A DNA stretch of 64,000 nt from Herbidospora yilanensis. Its GTDB lineage: Bacteria > Actinomycetota > Actinomycetes > Streptosporangiales > Streptosporangiaceae. The position numbers and the translations under genes were made by a program. Positions 545-39,051 of the stretch are shown piece by piece. The stretch is from NCBI RefSeq assembly GCF_001570565.1, contig NZ_BBXE01000023.1, forward strand, positions 124,001 to 188,000, written 5' to 3'. Under the pieces are notes generated by a model. It was not told the origin of the DNA. It worked only from the letters and a program-made list of their open reading frames with translations, and ran no database searches. Each line of letters opens with the position of its first letter. Positions within the stretch are counted from its first letter, which is position 1.

Positions 545-2662
545 ATGACTGCAATTGCGCGCCATCTCATGCCATGTCCTGAGATCGGTGACTCGACCGG
601 ACCTATTGACCGCGCCCCCGCGCCGCCCGACACTCGGGACGCCGGGCCGCGGCCCGGCTCGCCCCTGTGGATCTACTTCGCGTCGATCATCACGATCGGG
701 TTCACCGCCCTCGTCGTCGCGACCGTCCGGCTCGGCGGCCCCGAGCTGGGGCTGCTCGGCGCCGACCCGCTCTTCTGGGTGCTGGTCGTGCTCGTCTTCC
801 TGGGCGAACTCCGGCCCGTGATGGTGAGCTCGTCCGCCCTCGTCGGAGGCACCCCCACCTCGACGATGTTCACCTTCGCGGTGCTGATGCACTACGGGTT
901 GTCCGCCGCCGCGATCATGCAGGCCGTCGCGATGCTGGTCAGCGGGCTGGTGCACAGACGGGCCTGGCATCGCATCGCGTTCAACATCGCCCAGGTCACC
1001 CTCGCGTGCCTGGCCGCCGCCGTCACGTTCGGCATGTTCGGCGTGCACTCCCGGCCCATGAACACCTGGACGCCCACCGGTGCCGACATCCCGGCCATCG
1101 TGCTCGCCGGCCTGGCCTACTTCCTGGTCAGGGGCCTGCTGGTGTGCGGCGCGGTGGCGCTGCACGAGCGCAAGACCGTGCTCCGCGTGCTGAAGACCTC
1201 GCTCCTGCCGCAGGGCCTCGTCTACGGGGCGCTGCTGGGCCTCGCGCCGCTGGTCGTCGTGGTGATGGAGCACTCCGCCGGGCTGGTGCCGCTGTTCGTG
1301 GCGCCGCTCGCGGCCGTCTACTTCACCGCGACGCTCTCGATGCGCCGCGACCACCAGGCGATGCACGACGGCCTGACCGGCCTGCCCAACCGCAAACTGC
1401 TCATTCTCCGTACGGAGGAAGCGCTCGCCGAAGCCCGCCACGACGAGCGGGTGGGCCTGCTGCTGCTCGACCTCGACCGGTTCAAAGAGGTCAACGACAC
1501 CCTGGGACACCCGGTCGGCGACCTGCTGCTCAAGATCGTGGCCCATCGGCTGACCCACTCCGTCCGGCCCGGCGACGTCGTCGCGCGGCTCGGGGGCGAC
1601 GAGTTCGCCGTGCTGCTGCCGCAGATCCGCGACGCCCAGGCGGCCAAAGAGGTGGCCTCCCGCCTGCGGGTCGCGCTGACCGAACCGGTGCGGCTCGAAG
1701 GGATGACCTTCGACCTCGACGCGTCCATCGGCATCGCGCTCTACCCCGACCACGCGCCCGACTTCGAACTGCTGCTCCAGCGCTCCGACGTGGCGATGTA
1801 CATGGCCAAGGAGGCCCGCTCGGGCGTCGAGTTCTACGTCGCCGAACGCGACCGCAACTCCCCGGAGCGGCTCAGCCTGCTCGGCGACCTGCGCAGGGCC
1901 ATCGACGGGGCCGAACTCGACCTGCACTACCAGCCCAAGGTGGCCCTCCAGGACGGCAGCGTCGAAGGCGTCGAGGCACTGCTGCGCTGGTGGCATCCGG
2001 TCCGCGGCCCCGTCTCGCCCGGCGAGTTCATCCCGCTGGCCGAGCAGTCCTACCTGATGCGCGAGCTCACCCAGTACGTCATCGCCAAGGCCCTCGACCA
2101 GGCCGCCCGCTGGTGGCATTCGGGCCTGGAGGTGCCGATCTCGGTCAACGTGTCGGCCCGCGACCTGCTCGACTCGGGGCTGCCCGACCAGCTCTCGGCC
2201 GGTCTGGCCCACTACTCGCTGCCCGCGAACGCCATCCACCTGGAGGTCACCGAGCGCATCCTGATGACCGACCAGGCCTATTCGGCCGACACCATCCGCA
2301 CGCTGGCGACCCTGGGCGTGCCCCTCGCGCTCGACGACTTCGGCACGGGCTATTCGACCCTCGTACGGCTGCAGCGGCTCCAGGTCGACGAGGTCAAGAT
2401 CGACGCCTCGTTCGTCCGGAAACTGGGGGAGTCGGCCGACGACGAGCGGATCGTGCGCTCGATCATCGATCTGGTCCGTTCCCTCGGATTGCGTGCCGTG
2501 GCAGAAGGTGTGGAATCGGTCGACATCGCCGCGCAATTGCGGGGCATGGGGTGCCATGCCGGGCAAGGCTGGTGGCTCGCCGAGCCCATGCCGGCCGAGG
2601 AGGCCGCCGTGTGGTTGCGGTCGCGGCTGCGGCTGCCGATGGCCACGGTCAGGGTCGATTGA
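545..2662 (+). CDS. GGDEF-EAL cyclic-di-GMP turnover protein (RmdB-like)
   Basis: Predicted membrane protein that makes and/or breaks cyclic di-GMP. Residues about 45 to 265 form several hydrophobic helices. The GGDEF domain begins at HDGLTGLPNRK and has an intact RLGGDEF with an inhibitory-site RxxD (RPGD) five residues before it. The EAL domain has GVEALLRW, SVNVS, LEVTE, DDFGTGYS, VKIDASF, AEGVES and GQGWW, so its catalytic set looks complete. I chose ATG 545 because a G-rich Shine-Dalgarno (about 529-534) fits it; a TTG at 527 is an in-frame alternative. Its place just upstream of gatC matches Streptomyces RmdB (SCO5495, from memory), a developmental phosphodiesterase. Confidence 0.88.
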   Translation: MTAIARHLMPCPEIGDSTGPIDRAPAPPDTRDAGPRPGSPLWIYFASIITIGFTALVVATVRLGGPELGLLGADPLFWVLVVLVFLGELRPVMVSSSALVGGTPTSTMFTFAVLMHYGLSAAAIMQAVAMLVSGLVHRRAWHRIAFNIAQVTLACLAAAVTFGMFGVHSRPMNTWTPTGADIPAIVLAGLAYFLVRGLLVCGAVALHERKTVLRVLKTSLLPQGLVYGALLGLAPLVVVVMEHSAGLVPLFVAPLAAVYFTATLSMRRDHQAMHDGLTGLPNRKLLILRTEEALAEARHDERVGLLLLDLDRFKEVNDTLGHPVGDLLLKIVAHRLTHSVRPGDVVARLGGDEFAVLLPQIRDAQAAKEVASRLRVALTEPVRLEGMTFDLDASIGIALYPDHAPDFELLLQRSDVAMYMAKEARSGVEFYVAERDRNSPERLSLLGDLRRAIDGAELDLHYQPKVALQDGSVEGVEALLRWWHPVRGPVSPGEFIPLAEQSYLMRELTQYVIAKALDQAARWWHSGLEVPISVNVSARDLLDSGLPDQLSAGLAHYSLPANAIHLEVTERILMTDQAYSADTIRTLATLGVPLALDDFGTGYSTLVRLQRLQVDEVKIDASFVRKLGESADDERIVRSIIDLVRSLGLRAVAEGVESVDIAAQLRGMGCHAGQGWWLAEPMPAEEAAVWLRSRLRLPMATVRVD

Positions 2663-2738
2663 CCGCGTCGAGGAGGGGCGGCGGCTCGCCCTAGGATGAG
2701 GTGTCCACACTCCATCCAGGAATCGGGTTAAACGACTT

Positions 2739-3034
2739 ATGTCTGCCATAACCCGCGAAGAGGTCGCTCACCTCGCCCGGCTGTCCCGGCTGGCGCTGGC
2801 CGACGAGGAACTCGACCACTTCGCCGCCCAGCTCGACCAGATCGTCGGCGCGGTCGCCCGCGTCGCCGAGGTCGCGACCGCCGACATCCCGCCGTCGTCA
2901 CACGCGCTGCCGCTGACGAACGTGTTCCGGCCCGATGTCGTCGCGCCCAGCCTCACCCCCGAGCAGGCCCTTTCCGGCGCGCCCGCCGTCGAGGACGACC
3001 GCTTCCGCGTGCCCCGCATCCTCGGGGAGGAGGC

Positions 3035-3038
<4 letters not shown>
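2739..3038 (+). CDS. gatC: Asp-tRNA(Asn)/Glu-tRNA(Gln) amidotransferase subunit C
   Basis: 99 residues, the normal GatC length. The N-terminus [22 protein letters not shown] and the C-terminal [11 protein letters not shown] are family signatures. GatC is a small belt subunit that wraps GatA and GatB and stabilises the complex that converts mischarged Glu-tRNA(Gln) to Gln-tRNA(Gln). It overlaps gatA by 4 bp (GTGA), so the two are translationally coupled. A possible -10 (TAGGAT) lies at 2692. Confidence 0.96.
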
Positions 3039-4528
<1,490 letters not shown>

Positions 4529-4548
4529 AAACAGGGAAGGAGGGCGGC

Positions 4549-5781
4549 ATGATCACTCGCATCGAGATCGACGGCTTCAAGTCGTTCGAGAACTTCGCGC
4601 TGGATGTGCCGCCCTTCCTGGTCCTCATCGGCACCAACGCCAGCGGCAAGTCGAATCTCCTCGACGCGTTGACCTTCCTGTCGTGGGCTTTCGCCTTCGA
4701 TCTGGATGTCGCCGTCGATAATGTTCGCGGCGATGCCCGAAGCCTCTTTAGGCGCCGAGGTGACGGTTCGACGGTTGATCGGATTCGTTTCGCCCTAGAG
4801 GGCGAATTCTTCGGTTCGGAGGGCGACGAATACCGTCTCCGCGTCCGCTACGAGTTGGAACTGGTCTGGGGAGTCCGAGACGATCTTCTCGATGGGTTGG
4901 TGATCGCGAGCCACCGCATCGCCCCTGAACTGATTCCGTCGGAAGGGGAACCCAGCCGTCCAGGTTGGATGAGTTTGCCTGTCCAGGCCGGTGCGCAGGT
5001 CATTCCCTCGCAGAAGGGTCTGCGCGACAAAGCCGATCTGTTTCCGGCTCACGGCGAGGCGGAAGCCTCCATTGGTGCGTTCGCCCTGCGGCGCATCGAG
5101 GTCGAGCTTATGCGCATGCGTGTCCTCCATCTGGAAGCGGCGGCATTGCGGCAGGTCAGCAGAGTCGGCGATGCATCGAAACTCGACCCGACGGGACTTC
5201 GGCTGCCCAATTACCTTCGTCGTCTCGCCCGCAGGTCGGCATCGCCCGACCGGCCGAAAGGTGTCTTGAACGACATCACCATCGAACTCGGTGGATTGGT
5301 TCGGGAGGTCACAGGTTTCGACGTGGTGGTCGACGAAGCCCGGAGAGATGTGCGGATCGAATTCTCGTCTCCTTATCAGCAGGGGATAGCCGCCGAATCG
5401 GCGTCTGACGGAACTCTGCGGATTTTGGCGATGCTGGCCGCGATGCATGACGAGGGGCTTACCGCCGCCGAGGAGCCGGAGAACGGAGTGTTCCCCGAGC
5501 GGCTCCGTCAGTTGCTCGGGATCGCGCAGGAATTGGAGGGGGACCGGCAAGTCCTGTTCACCAGTCACTCTCCAGTGGTTCTCGATGCCGTCCCACGCGA
5601 GAACATCGCCTACTTCGACATGACCACGGTGATCGAGAACGGCAAGCCCAGCCGAGTCACCCGAGTCCGTCGTCTCCGCGACGAAGGCGGGCCCTCCTCC
5701 GTCGACGGCGAGCGGTGGGCCCGGGTCACCGACTCCGAACTCGATCGGTTCCGCGCCGGAATCGAGGAGCCGGTCGGGTGA
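4549..5781 (+). CDS. AAA/ABC-type ATPase (RecF/OLD-like, AAA_21) in the gat operon
   Basis: 410 residues from an ATG with a strong GGAAGGAGGG ribosome-binding site. Visible parts: N-terminal FKSFENF strand typical of RecF/SMC-like ATPases; Walker A GTNASGKSN at residues 28-36; an ABC-signature-like SDGTLRIL near 285; Walker B with double Glu (EEPENG) near 307; and a switch His in FTSHSPVVLD near 338. The central region (about 80-260) is helical and matches nothing I know by name. The next gene starts in its stop codon (GTGA), so the two should be co-translated. Codons end in A/T visibly more often than in gatA or gatB, suggesting acquisition. ATPases of this kind paired with a TOPRIM-like partner are known anti-phage modules (PARIS, OLD/Gabija); that role here is inferred. 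Confidence 0.8.
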   Translation: MITRIEIDGFKSFENFALDVPPFLVLIGTNASGKSNLLDALTFLSWAFAFDLDVAVDNVRGDARSLFRRRGDGSTVDRIRFALEGEFFGSEGDEYRLRVRYELELVWGVRDDLLDGLVIASHRIAPELIPSEGEPSRPGWMSLPVQAGAQVIPSQKGLRDKADLFPAHGEAEASIGAFALRRIEVELMRMRVLHLEAAALRQVSRVGDASKLDPTGLRLPNYLRRLARRSASPDRPKGVLNDITIELGGLVREVTGFDVVVDEARRDVRIEFSSPYQQGIAAESASDGTLRILAMLAAMHDEGLTAAEEPENGVFPERLRQLLGIAQELEGDRQVLFTSHSPVVLDAVPRENIAYFDMTTVIENGKPSRVTRVRRLRDEGGPSSVDGERWARVTDSELDRFRAGIEEPVG

Positions 5782-6416
5782 GAAGTGTGAGTTGCGTCCT
5801 CATCCGCGAAGGCCCCACCGACGACTGGTTCCTGCCGATCCTGCTGCGCCGCGCCCTGGAGACGATGGTCATCGAGAACTTCCCGTCCTGCCGGGAAGTG
5901 CAGGAGATCCGCAGTCTGCCGAGAGCGGGGAACCAGCATCCCGACTCGGTGCTGAAGGCACTCGACGCCGAGAGGGGCACCTTCGATGTGGTCCTCTACC
6001 ACCACGACGGCGCCCCTCCCGCGAAGTCGGAGGAGACCATCAGCCGTATGACCCAGGCGTGGGCGTCCGCGAAGTCGCCTGAGCCCATGGTCACGGTGGT
6101 CCCGATGAAGGAGACCGAAGCCTGGATCCTCGCCGACCAGGCGGCGGTCGCACGGGTCTTGTGCGTGCGGAAGTTCACCACGATCATCCCTGCCGGTCCC
6201 GCCGCAGAGGGGTGTCCCGACCCCAAGGCGACTCTGGCGGCGTTGTTGAAGAATGACGCTGGAATGAACCCCAGTAAGACCGGCGTTGTTCGCAATTTCT
6301 ACGTAACCATGGCCGAAGCTGCTGATATCGCCGTGCTGAAGAAGGTGCCGTCCTTCCAGCAGTGGTGGGCCGACATGATCAAAGCTCTGGAAGGACTGGG
6401 TTATCAGCATGGCTGA
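5778..6416 (+). CDS. DUF4276-like (TOPRIM-like) partner of the ATPase
   Basis: 212 residues from GTG 5778, which overlaps the ATPase stop. The N-terminus [20 protein letters not shown] has the EGxxD motif seen at the start of DUF4276 and TOPRIM-like proteins. It is followed by a strand ending in an acidic turn ([12 protein letters not shown], near residue 75) and by [14 protein letters not shown] (near 110), which matches the EaWlLAD motif of DUF4276. The family assignment is from motif memory, not a search. In related two-gene systems such a protein is the effector or nuclease regulated by the ATPase. Its stop overlaps the gatB start by 8 bp, tying it to an essential gene. No HNH, PD-(D/E)XK or HEPN motif is apparent. 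Confidence 0.65.
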
Positions 6417-7917
6417 CACGCCGACACTCATGCCCTACGACGAGGCGTTGGAGAGGTTCGAGCCGGTGCTCGGCCTGGAGACCCACGTCGAACTCGGCAC
6501 CGACTCGAAGATGTTCTGCGGCTGCCCGACCACCTTCGGCGCCCCGCCGAACACACACGTCTGCCCGACGTGCCTGGCCTTCCCCGGCGCGCTGCCGGTC
6601 GCCAACGCGGTGGCGATCGAGTCGACGATCCGGATCGGCCTCGCGCTCAACTGTTCGATCGCCGAGTGGTGCAGGTTCGCCCGGAAGAACTACTTCTATC
6701 CGGACATGCCGAAGAACTACCAGATCAGCCAGTACGACGAGCCGCTCTGCTTCGACGGCCACCTCGACATCACCGTCGATGGGAAGACGGTCCGGATCGA
6801 GATCGAGCGGGTCCACCTCGAAGAGGACACCGGCAAGTCCACTCACGTCGGTGGCGCGACCGGACGCATCCACGGCGCCGACCACTCGATCGTCGACTAC
6901 AACCGGGCCGGCATCCCGCTGGTCGAGATCGTCACCAAGCCGATCGTGGGCGCCGACCGGCTCGCTCCTGAGGTCGCCCGCGCCTACGCCACCGAGCTGC
7001 GCGAGGTCATGCGGTCGCTGGGCGTCTCCGACGTCCGCATGGACCAGGGTTCGATGCGTTGCGACGTCAACGTCTCGCTGATGCCGCGGGGCTCCAGCGA
7101 GTGGGGCACGCGTACCGAGACCAAGAACGTCAACTCCTTCCGCAGCGTCGAGCGGTCGGTCCGCGGCGAGATCGAGCGGCAGGCCGCGATCCTGGCCGAG
7201 GGCGGCCGGATCATCCAGGAGACCCGCCACTTCCACGAGGACACCGGCCTGACCACGTCGGGCCGCTCGAAGGAAGAGGCGCAGGACTACCGCTACTTCC
7301 CCGAGCCCGACCTGGTCCCGATCGCGCCCGACCCGGCGTGGGTGGCCCGGCTCAAGGCCGAGCTGCCCGAGCTGCCGTCGGTGCGACGCGCTCGCCTCCA
7401 GGCGGAGTGGGGGGTCAGCGACCTCGACATGGCCGCGATGCACAACGCCGACGCGTTCGGCCTGGTCGAGGCGACCGTCGAGGCGGGCGCTCCGGCGGCC
7501 GACGCGCGCAAGTGGTGGATGGGCGAGCTGGCCCGCCGCGCCAACGAGAACGGCGTCGCGCTGGCCGAGTTGCCGATCTCCCCGGCGCAGGTCGCGCGGG
7601 TGACCGAACTGGTGAAGTCGGGCGCGCTGAACGACAAGCTGGCCCGCCAGGTCCTCGAAGGCGTGCTCGCCGGTGAGGGCTCGCCCGACGAGGTCGTCGA
7701 GTCGCGCGGCCTGAAGATCGTCAACGACGAGGGCGAACTGTCGGCCATCATCGACCAGGTCATCGCCGACAACGCCGACGCCGCCGACAAGATCCGCAGC
7801 GGCAAGATCGCCGCCGTCGGCGCCCTCGTGGGCGGGGTCATGAAGGCCAGCCGGGGCAAGGCCGACGCGGGCCGCGCCCGCGCGCTCATCTTCGAGAAGC
7901 TCGGCGTCAGCGAATAG
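6409..7917 (+). CDS. gatB: Asp-tRNA(Asn)/Glu-tRNA(Gln) amidotransferase subunit B
   Basis: 502 residues, full length. GatB phosphorylates and amidates the misacylated tRNA. Typical motifs are GLETHVEL near the N-terminus, the zinc-ligand cysteines MFCGC and CPTC, the LVEIVTKP motif, and the C-terminal YqeY-like tail with [11 protein letters not shown] and [16 protein letters not shown] 6409 lies inside the end of the upstream DUF4276-like gene (8-bp overlap), so gatB translation probably depends on coupling to that gene. Followed by a strong terminator. Confidence 0.97.
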
Positions 7918-7920
7918 CTC

Positions 7921-7961
7921 GAAGTCGCCCGGGCCTGCCCAGGCCCGGGCACTTCTCTTTT
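7921..7961 (+). terminator. Rho-independent terminator after gatB
   Basis: An 11-bp perfect stem, GCCCGGGCCTG / CAGGCCCGGGC (7927-7937 with 7940-7950), extended by GAAGT/ACTTC with one bulged C. It is followed by TCTTTT and ends the gatCAB operon. Confidence 0.9.
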
Positions 7962-8054
7962 CCGCTACGGCTCCGCCCACCAAGGCCCCGCCCGCCGCCT
8001 CCGCCTCCCGCCGCGTCCGGCGCCCATCACCCGCTCCCGGATCCCGCCGCGACG
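7959..8054 (+). repeat. Dispersed GC-rich intergenic repeat, copy A
   Basis: About 96 bp beginning TTTCCGCTACGGCTCCGCCC and ending CCCGCCGCGACGG. It is close to identical to copy B at 35911-36007 and related to inverted copy C at 61430-61509; a short piece recurs at 18823. Each copy lies just 3' of a conserved gene or operon. No coding potential is evident. Confidence 0.75.
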
Positions 8055-8384
8055 GACCACCTCTGACGAAACGCCGCGGCCTTTGACACGCCCGCCAATA
8101 CTCGCCATATGACATAGCGCTAAAAAATCACCGCACAAATCCTTGATCTGTTTCATCCGCACTCATGCCCGTGCTGAATGTGCCATGACAGATCCCTGAC
8201 AGCCCCGTCCTCGTGGCACCTGGCTCTGTTATAAGAAGTCCGACGTCTCGCGCCAGAACGTCCTTCCACGGTCGCTTGACATGACCCCTGACAGGGCGAA
8301 CCTCATGTTTTCGCGACATATCCAGAAGAGGGTGCTTTAGGGTTAACTGAAGGGAGTTTCCCCTGAGCCGGAGGAGAGCAAGGC
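8055..8384. other. Intergenic region upstream of the VanW gene
   Basis: 330 bp without a convincing gene. It is less GC-rich than its surroundings. A TTGACA hexamer at 8276-8281 could be a -35 element, but no good -10 follows at the expected distance. CCCTGACAG occurs at about 8194 and again at about 8286. A GGAGGAG ribosome-binding site (8370-8376) precedes the next start. Nothing else stands out. Confidence 0.4.
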
Positions 8385-10331
8385 GTGCGGAACGCCGAAG
8401 CGTCCATCGACCCGCCGACGGATCCGTTCGGGACGGACTCTGAGGCGGTCTCCGCACGTAAACACCCGGTTCGCGCGGGCGGTTCGTTGCCCCCGGGCGT
8501 GACGTCCGACATCTTCGGCAGCGCCCCCCTCGTCAAGTCGCCGCCGTCCGACGCCTCGTTACCGCCGCCGGCCAAGGTCGAGGTCTGGCCGGTCGCCGCG
8601 CCGCGCAAGGTCACCATCGCGCCGCTGCCCGCCGAGGTCGAGGATCTGCCCGAGGAGGGGCCGGGGTTCCGCTGGGTGCGGCCCGCCCTGTTCGCCGTGG
8701 CGGGGCTCCTGGTCCTGCTGTACACCGTCCCCGCCTTCCTCATGGCCGGCAACGTCTATCCGGGCACGACCGTGCTCGGCGTCGACGTGGGCGGGCTGAA
8801 CGCCCGCGAGGCCGCCGACCGGCTGACCACGGGGCTGGTCAGCGCGGCCACGAACGCCATCGTGGTGCGCCACGGGACCAAGAGCGAGCGCATCAGCCCC
8901 GAGCGGAGCGGCCTGTCGATCGACATCCCGGCCACCGTGCGGGCCCTGCCCATGGGGTTCCCCAGTCCGGCCGACATCTGGCGGGCGATGACCAACGGGC
9001 GTGAGGTGACGCCGGTCGTCCGGGCCGACAGCGGACGGCTCGGCGAGGTCGTCTCCACCCAGGTGGCGCAGGCCATGGAACGGCCGATGGTCGAGGGCGA
9101 CGTCACCTTCGACGGCCTGCGGCCCCAGCCGGTCTACCCGAAGGAGGGGAGCACGCTCGACGTGCCCCGAGTGGTCGAGGCGGTGCGCGACGCCTACCTC
9201 AACCCCGACGTCATCGTCGACGTCAAGCCCGTCCAGGCCGCTCCGCGCGCCACGCGCGAGGGCGTGAACCGGGCGGTGGCCTGGGCGCGCAGGGCGGTCG
9301 CGGCGCCGGTCACGCTGACCTACGGGGGCGTCTCCCTGGAGCTCGCGCCGGTCGACATCGCGGCGGCGCTGAGCTTCGTGCCCGGCGAGACCGGCGGGCT
9401 GGAGGCCCGGTTCGACGCCGCCGTGGCGACGCGGGGCATGCGGTTCGTGCCCGTGCAGGAGGCGCCCCGCGACGCGACCTTCGTCATCGAGGGCGGGCGG
9501 CCCAAGCTGGTGCCCGGACGGCCCGGCATCGGGATCGACACCTCCAAACTGGGCGCCCAGATCATCGCCATCCTCGGCCGCCAGAGCAGCCGGACGGTGA
9601 CCGTGCCGATGACCCTGCTGAAGCCCGGCCTCGACGACAAGGAGGCCGCGGCGATCGGCATCGAGACCGAACTGGTCAGGGTCGACATGAGCTACAGCTG
9701 CTGCCAGCCCCGCGTGACCAACATCAAGGAGACCGCGCGGCGCGTCAACGGCCTGATCGTCCGGCCCGGCGAGACGTTCTCCCTGAACCAGGCGACCGGG
9801 CTCCGCGAGGGACGACCCGGATACGCAGGGCCCGCCGAGCCGGTCGAGATCCGCGGGGAGCAGGGCCGGGACGTGCCGGGGGTCTCGGTCGCCGGGACCG
9901 TCCTCTACAACGCGGCCCTCCGCGGCGGCCTCGACATCGTCGAGGCGGTGCCGCACGAGTCGTTCCTGCCGCCCTACCCGGCCGGGGTCGAGGTGGCCGT
10001 CTCCTACCCGGGGCCCGACCTGGTCTGGCGCAACAACACCGACTACGGGGTGCTGATCCAGGCCTCCGCCACCGACACGGTCATGACGGTGTCGTTGTGG
10101 GGGACCAAGACCTACGACGTCACGATCACCCAGAGCAGCCGCACCCGGTTCACCTCCACCCCGGCGCTCCAGGGCCCCGAGTCGGGCTGCGTGGCCTCGG
10201 TGGGCAGCGCCGGGTTCACGATCGTGACGACCCGCGAGCGGGTGCGTCTCGACGGCACCGCCGAGACGCCGGAGGACTGGAAGACGGTCTACCGGCCGCG
10301 CCCCGAGATCGTCTGCTCCGACGCCGACTAA
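8385..10331 (+). CDS. VanW-family membrane-anchored wall protein
   Basis: 648 residues from GTG 8385 (GGAGGAG site). A proline-rich cytoplasmic N-terminus of about 100 residues leads to one membrane helix (ALFAVAGLLVLLYTVPAFLM, near 105-125), then an extracellular part. That part has peptidoglycan-binding-4-type repeats beginning NVYPGTTVLGVDVGGLNAREAA and ends in a VanW domain (VNGLIVRPGETFSLNQATG, then SVAGTVLYNAALRGGLDIVE and YPAGVEVAVSYPG). These proteins are linked to peptidoglycan in Gram-positives; the biochemical role is unknown. No L,D-transpeptidase HxGT/SxGC motif is seen. Its TAA stop shares the CTAA tetranucleotide with the convergent gene. Confidence 0.85.
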   Translation: MRNAEASIDPPTDPFGTDSEAVSARKHPVRAGGSLPPGVTSDIFGSAPLVKSPPSDASLPPPAKVEVWPVAAPRKVTIAPLPAEVEDLPEEGPGFRWVRPALFAVAGLLVLLYTVPAFLMAGNVYPGTTVLGVDVGGLNAREAADRLTTGLVSAATNAIVVRHGTKSERISPERSGLSIDIPATVRALPMGFPSPADIWRAMTNGREVTPVVRADSGRLGEVVSTQVAQAMERPMVEGDVTFDGLRPQPVYPKEGSTLDVPRVVEAVRDAYLNPDVIVDVKPVQAAPRATREGVNRAVAWARRAVAAPVTLTYGGVSLELAPVDIAAALSFVPGETGGLEARFDAAVATRGMRFVPVQEAPRDATFVIEGGRPKLVPGRPGIGIDTSKLGAQIIAILGRQSSRTVTVPMTLLKPGLDDKEAAAIGIETELVRVDMSYSCCQPRVTNIKETARRVNGLIVRPGETFSLNQATGLREGRPGYAGPAEPVEIRGEQGRDVPGVSVAGTVLYNAALRGGLDIVEAVPHESFLPPYPAGVEVAVSYPGPDLVWRNNTDYGVLIQASATDTVMTVSLWGTKTYDVTITQSSRTRFTSTPALQGPESGCVASVGSAGFTIVTTRERVRLDGTAETPEDWKTVYRPRPEIVCSDAD

Positions 10332-12533: not shown

Positions 12534-15203
12534 GTGAACGGCACGCGTGACCCCAGGGTCTCGCTCATCGCCGCTGCCGGGCTCGGCGCGGCGGTCATCG
12601 CCGCTGCCCTGATAGCGGGGGGATCGGCCTCCGCGGTGACGGCGGTGGCGGGCCTGGTGACCGGCCTGCTGGCGGCGGTCTCCCTCGTGGTGGCCTCGGG
12701 CCGCGTCATCTCGGGCGAGCGCGACACGGGCGACAGCGCGAGCGACCGCCGAGAGGCCGTGGGCTGGCGCTGGCTGGCCGGCGGCGCGCTCACCTGGCTG
12801 GCCGGGATCGGCGTGCGGCCGGTGGCCGAGGGCACCGCCTTCGTGCTCACCTTCGCCGACCTGATGCTGCTGGTCGGGGCGCTGCTGCTGATGATCGGCT
12901 GCTGGCTGACCTCGTTGCCGCCGCCGCAGAGCCGCGGCCTGTTCCGCCAGATCAGCGACGGTTACCTGTCGGCCGCCTCCCTGTTCGCGATCACTTGGGC
13001 GCTGCTGCTCGCGCCGATGTTCGCCAAGGCCGAGGAGCCGGGCGCCTTCTACACGACCCTCGCGCTGCCGCTGCTGTGCCTGCTGGCGACCTGCGCGGCG
13101 GCCCCGTTCGTCGCGGTCTCCCGGGCGGCCAACCGGGCGGTCGGACTGGCCGGGCTCGGGGTGTTGTCCGCGGTCACGGTGGCCGAACTGGCCACCGCCG
13201 TCTCCCGCCTCAACGGCGTCGACCCGGTGATCCCGGCCGGGCTGGTCGCCCCCCTGGGATTCCTCGCCCTGGCCGTCGCTCCGTGGATCGAGGAGGCCGG
13301 ACGCCGCCGGGTGCCCTCGGATCAGCGCAACGCCGCCACGCCTCCCGTGGTGGTCACCGTCACCCCCTACGCGCTCGTGCTCGCGGCCGTGGCCGTGGTG
13401 GCCGTCAAGGCCGTCGGCGCCACCGGCGACGTGCTGATGCCGGTCGTCACCGTGTCGGCCGTGGCCGTGTTGCTGGCCCGGCTGCTGATCGTGATGTTGT
13501 CGGCCGACGGCATGCGGCGGCAGATGGTCGTGAGCGAGCGGCAGCTCCGGCAACTGGCCGAGAACACCGGCGACGTCGTGCTGATGGTCGACCTCGAAGG
13601 GGTCGTACAGGAGATCAGCGACGGCGTCGAGACCACCTACGGCTACCCGCCCGCGAGCCTGCTCGGCCAGCCGATCGTCGACTACGTCCACCCTGAGGAC
13701 GTGCCCGTCATCCAGGCGCTGCTGCGCCAGCTCGCCGAAGACGACGGCAACATCGAGCGCTACGGCACCTGCCGGCTGGCCTGCCGGGTCCGCGCCGCCG
13801 ACGGCACCTGGCGGCCCACCGAGTCGGTGGCGACCCGCGACGTCCGCCGCGAAGACCTGATCCTGGTGACCACCCGCGACGTCTCCGACCAGGTGGCGCT
13901 ACGCAACCAGGTCACCCACCTGACCTTCCACGACGGCGTGACCGGGCTGCCCAACCGGGCCTACTTCGAGGAGCGCACCCGCGAGGTGCTCGCCCGCTCG
14001 GCCGGCACCGCCGTGATCTTCCTCGACCTCGACGGCTTCACCGGCGTCAACGACTCCGTCGGCCACGCCAGCGGCGACTACCTGCTCGGCCAGGCCGCCC
14101 GGCGGCTGCGCCAGGCCCTGCGGGCCGACGACACGCTCGCCCGGTGGGGCGGCGACGAGTTCGCCGTGCTACTGGAGGCCGGGGCCGACGCGCAGATGGT
14201 CGTCGACCTGGCCGAACGCCTGGTCCGGGCGGTCTCCCAGGAGCCCTTCCGGGTCGCCGACCGCGACATCGCGCTGACCGCGTCCGTCGGGGTGGCCTTC
14301 ACCGAAGACGACACCTCGGCGGCCGACCTGCTGCGCAACGCCGACGTGGCCATGGCGCGGGCCAAGGGCCTGGGCGGACGCCGGGTCGAGGTCTTCGCCG
14401 CCCACATGCACGCCGAGGCCGTACGCCGGCTCGAAACCGCCGCCGACCTCCAGCGGGCCCTGCTCGACCAGCAGTTCGCGATCGAATACCAGCCCGTGGT
14501 CGACCTGGCCACCTCCCGCGTCACCGCCGTCGAGGCGCTGGTGCGCTGGTGCCGGGGGAGCGGCGTGTTCACCCCGCCCGAGCAGTTCCTCGGCACGGCC
14601 GAGGACACCGGCCTGATCGTGCCGCTGAGCGAGTGGATACTGCGCGAGGCCTGCCGCGAGGTCGCCGAATGGCGCGCGGCCAACTGGGACATCGGCCTGT
14701 CGGTCAACCTGTCGAAGCGCCAGATCATGGCGGCCGGCTTCGTCGAGACGGTGTCGGAGGCCCTGACCGACAGCGGCCTGCCCCCCAGCGCCCTCACCCT
14801 CGAAGTGATCGAGGAGATGCTGGTGGAAGACGCCGAAGACACCATCGGCAAATTGTCCGACCTCCGCGCGCTGGGCGTCCGTTTGGCGATCGACGACTTC
14901 GGCACCGGCTACGCCTCGCTGGCGCTGCTCCGGCAGCTCCCCGTCGACATCATCAAGATCGACCCCTCGTTCGTCAGCGGCCTGGGCCGCGACGAGACCC
15001 TCAGCCTCCTGACCCGCACGATCGTGCGCCTCGGGCACGACCTCGGCCTGATCGTGGTGGCCGAGGGCATCGAGCGCCCCGAGCAACTCGACCTGCTGCG
15101 CGAGATGGGCTGCAGCCGCGGCCAGGGCTACCTGGTCGGCCGCCCGATGGCCGCCCAGGGAGTGAGCTCCCTCATCCGCACCAGCCTGACGGCCTCGGCC
15201 TGA
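12534..15203 (+). CDS. Membrane PAS-GGDEF-EAL cyclic-di-GMP protein
   Basis: 889 residues from GTG 12534. Residues 1 to about 325 hold roughly ten hydrophobic segments. A PAS domain follows (LRQLAENTGDVVLMVDLEGV to the ATRDVRRED region, about 335-440). The GGDEF domain has intact WGGDEF near 539, preceded by I-site RADD. The EAL domain has VEALVRW near 665, SVNLSK, LEVIEEM, DDFGTGYASL, IIKIDPSF, AEGIERPEQ and GQGYLVGRPM. All key residues of both domains are present. Its position just before ilvB matches S. coelicolor SCO5511 (from memory). The membrane/PAS input suggests a sensed signal, unknown. Confidence 0.88.
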   Translation: MNGTRDPRVSLIAAAGLGAAVIAAALIAGGSASAVTAVAGLVTGLLAAVSLVVASGRVISGERDTGDSASDRREAVGWRWLAGGALTWLAGIGVRPVAEGTAFVLTFADLMLLVGALLLMIGCWLTSLPPPQSRGLFRQISDGYLSAASLFAITWALLLAPMFAKAEEPGAFYTTLALPLLCLLATCAAAPFVAVSRAANRAVGLAGLGVLSAVTVAELATAVSRLNGVDPVIPAGLVAPLGFLALAVAPWIEEAGRRRVPSDQRNAATPPVVVTVTPYALVLAAVAVVAVKAVGATGDVLMPVVTVSAVAVLLARLLIVMLSADGMRRQMVVSERQLRQLAENTGDVVLMVDLEGVVQEISDGVETTYGYPPASLLGQPIVDYVHPEDVPVIQALLRQLAEDDGNIERYGTCRLACRVRAADGTWRPTESVATRDVRREDLILVTTRDVSDQVALRNQVTHLTFHDGVTGLPNRAYFEERTREVLARSAGTAVIFLDLDGFTGVNDSVGHASGDYLLGQAARRLRQALRADDTLARWGGDEFAVLLEAGADAQMVVDLAERLVRAVSQEPFRVADRDIALTASVGVAFTEDDTSAADLLRNADVAMARAKGLGGRRVEVFAAHMHAEAVRRLETAADLQRALLDQQFAIEYQPVVDLATSRVTAVEALVRWCRGSGVFTPPEQFLGTAEDTGLIVPLSEWILREACREVAEWRAANWDIGLSVNLSKRQIMAAGFVETVSEALTDSGLPPSALTLEVIEEMLVEDAEDTIGKLSDLRALGVRLAIDDFGTGYASLALLRQLPVDIIKIDPSFVSGLGRDETLSLLTRTIVRLGHDLGLIVVAEGIERPEQLDLLREMGCSRGQGYLVGRPMAAQGVSSLIRTSLTASA

Positions 15204-38779: not shown

Positions 38780-38851
38780 TGGGGTATGGTGTAATTGGCA
38801 ACACGACTGATTCTGGTTCAGTTATTCTAGGTTCGAGTCCTGGTACCCCAG
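38780..38851 (+). tRNA. tRNA-Gln (CTG anticodon)
   Basis: 72 nt with a full cloverleaf: acceptor TGGGGTA/TACCCCA, anticodon loop TTCTGGT reading CAG codons, T loop GGTTCGAGTCC, discriminator G. The first pair is U1-A72, the identity element used by bacterial GatCAB on tRNA-Gln. CCA is not encoded. Confidence 0.95.
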
Positions 38852-38869
38852 CGCACGCAGTGCAGCTTT

Positions 38870-38942
38870 GCTCCCGTCGTCTAGTGGCCTAGGACGCCGC
38901 CCTCTCAAGGCGGTAACGGCGGTTCGAATCCGCTCGGGAGTA
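38870..38942 (+). tRNA. tRNA-Glu (CTC anticodon), copy 1
   Basis: 73 nt. Acceptor GCTCCCG/CGGGAGT (G1-U72 wobble), D arm TCTAGTGGCCTAGGA, anticodon stem GCCGCC around CTCTCAA, T loop GGTTCGAATCC, discriminator A. Anticodon CTC reads GAG. CCA is not encoded. Confidence 0.95.
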
Positions 38943-38973
38943 CGAGAATTTCCCCTCTCACCAGTAGTTACAT

Positions 38974-39046
38974 GGCTCCGTCGTCTAGTGGCCTAGGACG
39001 CCGCCCTCTCAAGGCGGTAGCGGCGGTTCGAATCCGCTCGGGGCTA
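38974..39046 (+). tRNA. tRNA-Glu (CTC anticodon), copy 2
   Basis: 73 nt, identical to copy 1 from position 8 to the T arm except A to G in the variable region. The acceptor differs: GGCTCCG/CGGGGCT, with paired changes that keep the stem. Same anticodon, discriminator A. Confidence 0.95.
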
Positions 39047-39051
39047 CTTTG

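Follow-up and report, generated by a model that had tools for sequence, protein, structure and literature searches.

The junction between gatA and gatB in Herbidospora yilanensis is probably an allelic immune locus, a fixed site within an essential operon at which a two-gene candidate defence pair of the HEC-01 type exists as interchangeable alleles. The DNA analysed, referred to here as the window, is a stretch of 64,000 nucleotides from this organism (contig NZ_BBXE01000023.1, positions 124,001–188,000 of the forward strand), and the gat genes and the pair described below all lie on its plus strand. The pair occupies positions 4549–6416 and comprises an ABC ATPase of 410 amino acids (aa), the presumed sensor (4549–5781), and a DUF4276 protein of 212 aa, the presumed effector (5778–6416). 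Features expected of an allelic locus, namely a shared site, divergent homologous modules and conserved flanks, are found between gatA and gatB.

Both proteins match models of a named family. In PADLOC-DB, the ATPase is matched by the HEC-01A model PDLC04184 (287.6 bits, E 4.6e-86) and its partner by the HEC-01B model PDLC04210 (143.6 bits). The same models match 28/28 aligned ATPases and 30/30 aligned DUF4276 partners, respectively, and the two adjacent genes of the window stand in the HEC-01 order. HEC denotes an Hma-embedded candidate; in the accessible passages of PMC12988326, several HECs including HEC-06 are reported as antiviral in assays, and those passages do not state antiviral activity for HEC-01. 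The window pair has gatC, gatA and gatB as neighbours and is not embedded in Hma. As such embedding is the route of discovery, judging from the name and from the same passages, and not a known required part, membership rests on the models. The window pair is a member of the known candidate defence family HEC-01, in keeping with a sequence-only reading of the window, which had proposed a candidate defence pair here.

The junction was read in 121 genomes, consisting of 115 from a sample of 120 Streptosporangiaceae (one genome per species, GatB found in 116), five further genomes and Nonomuraea gerenzanensis; G014, whose GatB is split over two contigs, was excluded. An intact pair is present at 33 junctions and a broken one at six; 14 have a short interval, 41 are empty (gatA and gatB abutting or overlapping, at most 12 nt, with no profile hit) and 27 contain a different insert of 1.8–6.4 kb. 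In these counts G099 is intact, as its two ATPase hits share one open frame of 350 aa, and G060 is broken; the ATPase of the latter is a single open frame of 357 aa, but its DUF4276 match is interrupted by a stop close to its end and is separated from gatB by 1.76 kb. Within the sample alone, 28/115 junctions are intact and 5/115 broken, and at least five more are scars with the last DUF4276 codons. When the DUF4276 protein of the window was used as query, a choice that favours the site-linked type, 39 places were found in 36 of the 120 family genomes, 33 of them (one a scar) at gatA–gatB and six elsewhere; with the Pfam model, additional DUF4276 genes are detected at other places in family genomes. 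Because the pair recurs at the same junction in other genomes, its placement there is not chance. Its presence or absence requires at least 15 changes on the 121-row tree of the flanking genes. The two genes overlap in 31 of the 33 intact loci, are naturally fused in G004 and stand 49 nt apart in G044. The different inserts belong to a separate clade of the family and give no ATPase or DUF4276 match. Five of them (L076, L081, L082, L085 and L089) encode secreted-looking proteins on the minus strand with a TQAAIWH-SNG motif; those of L076, L081 and L089 show what looks like an LPxTG-type end.

Beyond the family, DUF4276 was found in 16 genomes in two class scans (246 and 394 genomes), and in none of the 16 does the 1.5 kb upstream of gatB contain the pair, gatA being unrecognised there in two. 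A weak DUF4276 match in G242, from another family (C1:1909297-1909803, some 10 kb downstream of gatB at 1919967-1921442), is probably due to chance. These distributions bear on a functional tie to GatCAB, by which the pair would sense or act on the charging of tRNA-Gln and tRNA-Asn, or guard the amidotransferase. Such a tie would suit a site fixed in a tRNA-amidation operon over many genera, and the PARIS effector AriB, which belongs to a similar architecture, cleaves tRNAs according to excerpts of PMC12409363. Exchange through the flanks can, however, explain the fidelity to the site; in the 41 empty junctions (one of which, G038, is a scar) gatA and gatB lie side by side without the pair, and in the 16 genomes outside the family DUF4276 does not precede gatB. 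A functional link is not needed to explain the site and appears improbable to us. A stronger form, in which the site itself is functional, the pair being made in step with GatCAB and acting on or watching the tRNAs that GatCAB amidates, with the middle of the ATPase diversifying as its recognition part and two ancient classes of allele, has a similarly low probability.

The modules at this site fall into two superclades with support of 100/100, superclade I with 17 rows (including the window) and superclade II with 21. Both superclades occur within each of three genus codes, g1, g65 and g68, and these codes, derived without the gat genes, display the same mixing as the flanks. A single module clade is rejected for g1, which is Herbidospora (p 1e-119), and for g68 (p 2e-75). 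Three of the seven Herbidospora species carry superclade I, three carry superclade II, and one (G033) has a type I scar. These relatives, among them H. cretacea (L032/G484) and H. mongoliensis (L031/G485), have GatA and GatB about 94–100% identical to those of the window. The nearest relative of the window by its flanks is G486 (98% over 693 columns), yet it carries superclade II; its DNA identity to the window is 93–98% in the final 900 bp of gatA and 96–97% in the first part of gatB. In Herbidospora, the switch between types falls within the first ATPase codons and near the start of gatB. On the flank tree the I/II label requires eight changes over 36 rows, and 11 over 43 rows when scars are added. 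Among ATPases, the 34 site-linked sequences form one clade relative to 16 fetched relatives from elsewhere (97/88, and 94% of 200 bootstrap trees, the damaged rows G084, G269, G097 and G060 being omitted), which fits a single entry followed by exchange among copies at the site. A vertically inherited housekeeping pair was rejected, as the module tree conflicts with the flank tree. The sequence-only reading had named two outcomes that would tell against it, universal presence with vertical phylogeny and ordinary codon use, or profile hits to a housekeeping family unrelated to defence. Neither was found: presence is patchy, the trees conflict, the codons are unusual and the profiles point to a candidate defence pair.

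Traces of exchange are visible at the junction. In Herbidospora, the spacer before the ATPase has a 12-bp insertion or deletion, and each superclade is found with either state of it. In G034 (L039, oriented 3160-7001), the gatA–gatB interval contains two complete pairs in tandem, one of superclade II (on a long branch) and one of superclade I. The sequence between these two modules includes a gatB start as in type II junctions (29 nt are identical to G397) and some 60 nt that resemble the end of gatA with its spacer. The gatB 5' and gatA 3' fragments score 32 and 37 against 120 references; the best of 200 shuffles, each compared with 60 references, score 17 and 20. Such remnants would be expected after recombination between gatA and gatB arms. 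Third-position GC is 81.1% in the gatA gene of H. mongoliensis (L031 3306-4796), compared with 97.0% and 94.0% in those of two congeners, and the final 900 bp of the H. mongoliensis gene are 86–91% identical to the window; on account of these two properties, part of this gatA may itself have been exchanged.

Exchange has to be weighed against the persistence of ancient alleles through speciation, a trans-species polymorphism under balancing selection with little transfer between genera, in which switching would be the sorting of ancestral alleles. The single clade of site-linked ATPases would be expected from such persistence, and the divergence of the alleles is also compatible with it. Among the three type-1 Herbidospora modules, synonymous divergence (dS) is 1.0–1.4 for the ATPase and 0.53–0.87 for DUF4276, compared with 0.22–0.28 for gatB and 0.36–0.61 for gatA. 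Since the ATPase values exceed those of both flanking genes and the DUF4276 values exceed those of gatB, alleles of the same type appear to be older than the species, or to have moved between them. Switching between types is also somewhat below random expectation (mean 12.1 changes and minimum 7 in 200 shuffles of the labels over 36 rows). On the other side, the gatB and gatA fragments between the tandem modules of G034, and the spacer states shared by both types, point to recombination at the junction. We consider ancient alleles with little transfer a distinct but less likely explanation, and an allelic immune locus with exchange of alleles remains the preferred one.

The part of the ATPase most likely to confer specificity on such alleles is its middle, aa 83–192 (4795–5124). 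For the three type-1 Herbidospora ATPases, identity is 77–85% over aa 1–82 and 74–78% over aa 193–410, but 29–41% over this middle. The ratio of nonsynonymous to synonymous divergence (dN/dS) is 0.60 and 0.66 in the middle, with one pair saturated, and 0.12–0.18 in the other parts. The superclade II trio behaves alike: the middle is 26–47% identical with dN/dS of 0.38 and 0.68 (one pair saturated), whereas the ratio is 0.10–0.14 in the C-terminal part and 0.19–0.39 in the N-terminal part. The middle aligns poorly, with 16–44 of 110 columns gapped in superclade I and 25–27 of 115 in superclade II, so these ratios, none of which exceeds 1, are rough. On the strength of these comparisons, the roughly 110 residues concerned are likely to be the recognition part of this HEC-01 type.

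Loss of the pair has left scars that retain the ATPase start and the DUF4276 end. In a test of 62 junctions with 100 shuffles each, in which a lone low-scoring 0/100 is weak, both ends beat all the shuffles in G033, G077, G104 and G009. The DUF4276 tail alone did so in G038, G039, G050 and G114, and the ATPase head alone in G025, as well as in G060 and G099, which were tested among broken loci. At the G038 junction (L040), GatA reads through LLTKAPAL in frame into EGLGYQHG, the last eight residues of DUF4276, so that a foreign-tailed GatA results with the same overlap onto gatB. The stretch kept in scars contains GGAAGGA or GAAGGGA ahead of the gatB start. Its counterpart in the window, GGAAGGA at 6389–6395 within the DUF4276 tail, is the likely ribosome-binding stretch of gatB, of moderate strength (-5.5 kcal/mol) and 13 nt before the ATG. 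Here the DUF4276 gene overlaps gatB (6409–7917; GatB_N 371 bits, GatB_Yqey 145 bits) by 8 bp (6409–6416). The tail of gatA itself has a strong Shine–Dalgarno stretch (-7 kcal/mol or below) in 0/32 intact, 0/7 broken, 1/14 short, 32/41 empty and 3/27 other junctions, G099 being counted as broken in these classes. Such a stretch was considered as a switch between states, a proposal that proved weak.

Two further explanations turn on this intimacy with gatB. The pair might serve gatB expression in an ordinary housekeeping or regulatory capacity and not be a defence system; its place in an essential operon and its overlap with gatB at 24 of the 33 intact loci would fit such a role. The patchy presence, the natural deletions and disruptions, the hypervariable ATPase middle and profile matches that are best with candidate defence families make this very unlikely. 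Alternatively, a selfish module resembling toxin–antitoxin systems might persist by embedding, without benefit to the host. Pfam describes AAA_21 as a 'putative AbiEii toxin', and an embedded position may hinder clean loss. Scars and clean junctions, however, indicate that loss is frequent, and raised dN/dS in a hypervariable region is more in line with recognition. We judge a selfish module unlikely.

Several observations weigh against an allelic immune locus with the properties proposed. The HEC-01 subfamily is not confined to the gatA–gatB site, as a pair in G091 (L178) away from gatB matches both HEC-01 models with 342 and 82 bits. In g65, the approximately unbiased (AU) test does not reject a single module clade (p 0.168), though its likelihood is 1019 lower. 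Because the eight observed changes are fewer than the shuffled mean, part of the I/II pattern follows descent. The flank tree was inferred by a quick method, 38 of its 118 inner branches are open, and recombination between the flanking genes and the module may occur. Tight coupling to gatB is not universal: at 9/33 intact loci gatB begins 35–133 nt after the pair and has its own Shine–Dalgarno-like stretch. According to the sequence-only reading, silencing the module would necessarily lower GatB; this fits the 8-bp overlap and the likely ribosome-binding stretch spared in scars, and the nine separated loci limit it. The negative link between the module and a gatA-tail Shine–Dalgarno stretch is not significant in independent pairs (median p 0.125, none opposite), a test made with a motif call in place of energy over the 94 junctions outside the 'other' class. 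HEC-01 is a candidate by its name, and no phage assay of the pair was found in the literature covered. Phage defence and nuclease activity are presumptive properties of the pair.

The chemistry of the partner belongs among these points as well. The DUF4276 match (PF14103) reaches 43.9 bits over a cut-off of 30.2, and the protein has the two motifs that the sequence-only reading described, EGPTD (E11 and D15; 5808–5822) and ETEAWILAD (E112–D120; 6111–6137). Across 30 sequences E11 and D15 are present in at least 90%; in the second motif L118 and D120 are invariant and T113, E114, W116 and A119 are kept in at least 90%. The same reading called the partner TOPRIM-like, which goes beyond what could be confirmed. 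Comparison with an OLD-like Toprim profile by hhalign gave a weak match (7% probability), with a score of 24.5; the best of 40 column shuffles scored 17.5. An AF2 model built from a three-sequence alignment has a strand–helix order compatible with Toprim at low confidence, its mean predicted local distance difference test (pLDDT) score being 44; the ATPase model obtained in the same way has a mean of 38. In that partner model EGPTD falls at the end of the predicted first strand. The Protein Data Bank (PDB) yielded no match to the DUF4276 protein at E 0.001, either by profile or by a fold search with the low-confidence model, and D77, the acid expected after the third strand, is not conserved in superclade II. 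A Toprim fold is thus suggested tentatively, by EGxxD at a predicted strand end and by the weak match to OLD; because that match is weak, the pLDDT low, the fold search empty and D77 not kept, any effector chemistry is proposed conditionally.

The ATPase (AAA_21, 92 bits) has the complete set of motifs that had been recognized in its translation. Walker A, GTNASGKSN, lies at aa 28–36 (4630–4656), the SDGT signature of ABC proteins at aa 286–289 (5404–5415), EEPENG, covering Walker B and the D-loop region, at aa 308–313 (5470–5487), and the switch histidine is H340 (5566–5568). In an alignment of 28 sequences G28, G33–N36, S286–G288, E308, E309, E311, G313 and H340 are invariant, and N30 and T289 are kept in at least 90%. 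The gene is preceded by a 20-nt spacer (4529–4548) whose AAGGAGG is its ribosome-binding stretch. The translational joints were also described correctly: the two genes of the pair meet in GTGA, a 4-bp overlap with the GTG start of the DUF4276 gene within the ATPase stop, and the overlap with gatB follows. The DUF4276 protein was taken from this GTG at 5778; the open frame extends upstream to 5715. Codon use is less GC-biased than in the flanking genes, as had been noticed, with third-position GC of 73.9% in the ATPase gene and 81.6% in the DUF4276 gene versus 97.0% in gatA and 95.0% in gatB.

A mechanism can be suggested that would account for these properties. A single ancestral pair would have arrived at the junction and diverged into superclades I and II and their several subtypes, and alleles would since have passed between lineages by homologous recombination across the conserved flanks of gatA and gatB. 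The pair would be lost through deletions, often sparing the last DUF4276 codons with the likely gatB ribosome-binding stretch, and retention of this stretch would shape which deletions survive. The ABC ATPase would be a sensor, presumably made constitutively, whose hypervariable aa 83–192 recognize a phage trigger. It may hold or activate the DUF4276 protein, a nuclease-like effector that would stop phage growth, in the manner of AriA and AriB in PARIS; the roles of sensor and effector are assigned by this analogy.

Upstream of the pair lie gatC (2739–3038), an open reading frame with an orthologue beside gatA in L031 and L032, and gatA (3035–4528; Amidase PF01425, 530 bits), which ends in LLSKAPAL and has a tail without a strong Shine–Dalgarno stretch. 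A search of window positions 2500–8400 with Rfam gave no match above the cut-offs. Two large proteins that resemble GGDEF/EAL proteins, a label drawn from motifs in their translations alone, are encoded at 527–2662, before gatC, and downstream at 12534–15203. In many bacteria tRNA-Gln depends on GatCAB; the window contains a cluster of tRNA-Gln (CTG), tRNA-Glu (CTC) and tRNA-Glu (CTC) at 38780–39047, more than 30 kb from the pair.

Defence genes usually sit in islands, prophages and other mobile elements. Nine PHROGs families match the first protein of the pair and none matches the second; the DUF4276 protein had no match in the phage collection, and none was confirmed in viral contigs with either alignment. 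Its two matches in the plasmid collection are in a Shinella replicon and in a Nonomuraea record (11.85 Mb), the copy in the latter also lying at gatA–gatB. Here, by contrast with the usual settings of defence genes, one candidate defence pair occupies the same position within an essential operon in many genera. The genes that flank it can act as arms for the exchange of alleles, and the overlap of reading frames can make clean loss harder. The site offers a natural series of alleles I and II, a fusion, broken copies, scars and clean junctions, which suits the study of exchange, loss and specificity of immune modules. As far as searched, the combination of a fixed essential-operon site, a single site-linked clade, allele switching, an exchange footprint and scars is undescribed. 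Among the papers listed from an open-licence library without bioRxiv preprints, none has a title that concerns a gene pair in the gatCAB operon; full-text searches of this library found no paper on DUF4276, and the one paper in which HEC-01 appears with 'defence' lists it as present in a strain.

Comparison with known systems places the pair closest to HEC-01, to whose A and B models both proteins match in the same two-gene order. The window type differs in being fixed in an essential operon, in forming one site-linked clade and in behaving as alleles. PARIS (AriA/AriB, a 'class 4 OLD' system) likewise joins an ABC ATPase to a small effector on separate genes that are sometimes fused, according to excerpts of PMC12409363 and PMC10568477, and the natural fusion of ATPase and DUF4276 in G004 parallels the fused AriAB described in the latter. 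Excerpts of PMC12409363 further describe an AriA hexamer that holds AriB until a phage protein binds, on which AriB cleaves tRNA. PARIS differs in that AriB is a DUF4435 Toprim nuclease, whereas the partner in the window is a DUF4276 protein. Membership of PARIS, which the sequence-only reading had cited among known ATPase and TOPRIM-like pairs, was rejected, since DUF4435 is absent from the Pfam hits of the partner. DUF4435 had no match in the genome of the window, nor was a member found in 118 genomes. The ATPase does match the PADLOC AriA model PDLC02980, at 94.5 bits, and scores 287.6 with HEC-01A. The MAD3 model of the MADS ATPase gives 108 bits, far below its cut-off of 420. An RloB identity for the partner was also rejected. 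No RloB is found among its Pfam hits, and the profile comparison, in which ETEAWxLAD was placed on FExWLLLH of RloB, gave 0.4% probability and a score of 16.9, below the best column shuffle of 21.9; three rows of 22–30 aa fragments (L195, L206 and L208) were left out of the RloB and Toprim profile comparisons. The genome of the window has RloB-family matches of its own, two above the Pfam cut-off and one weak and partial (C25:118942-119457, C27:135026-135505 and C33:81957-82265). With respect to its site, the nearest parallel is the enteric immigration control region between yjiA and yjiN, where, in excerpts of PMC12707154, conserved anchor genes enclose strongly varying defence genes of several families and an empty version also exists. 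Between yjiA and yjiN it is the gene content that varies, whereas between gatA and gatB one homologous pair varies as alleles, within a single essential operon and in overlapping reading frames.

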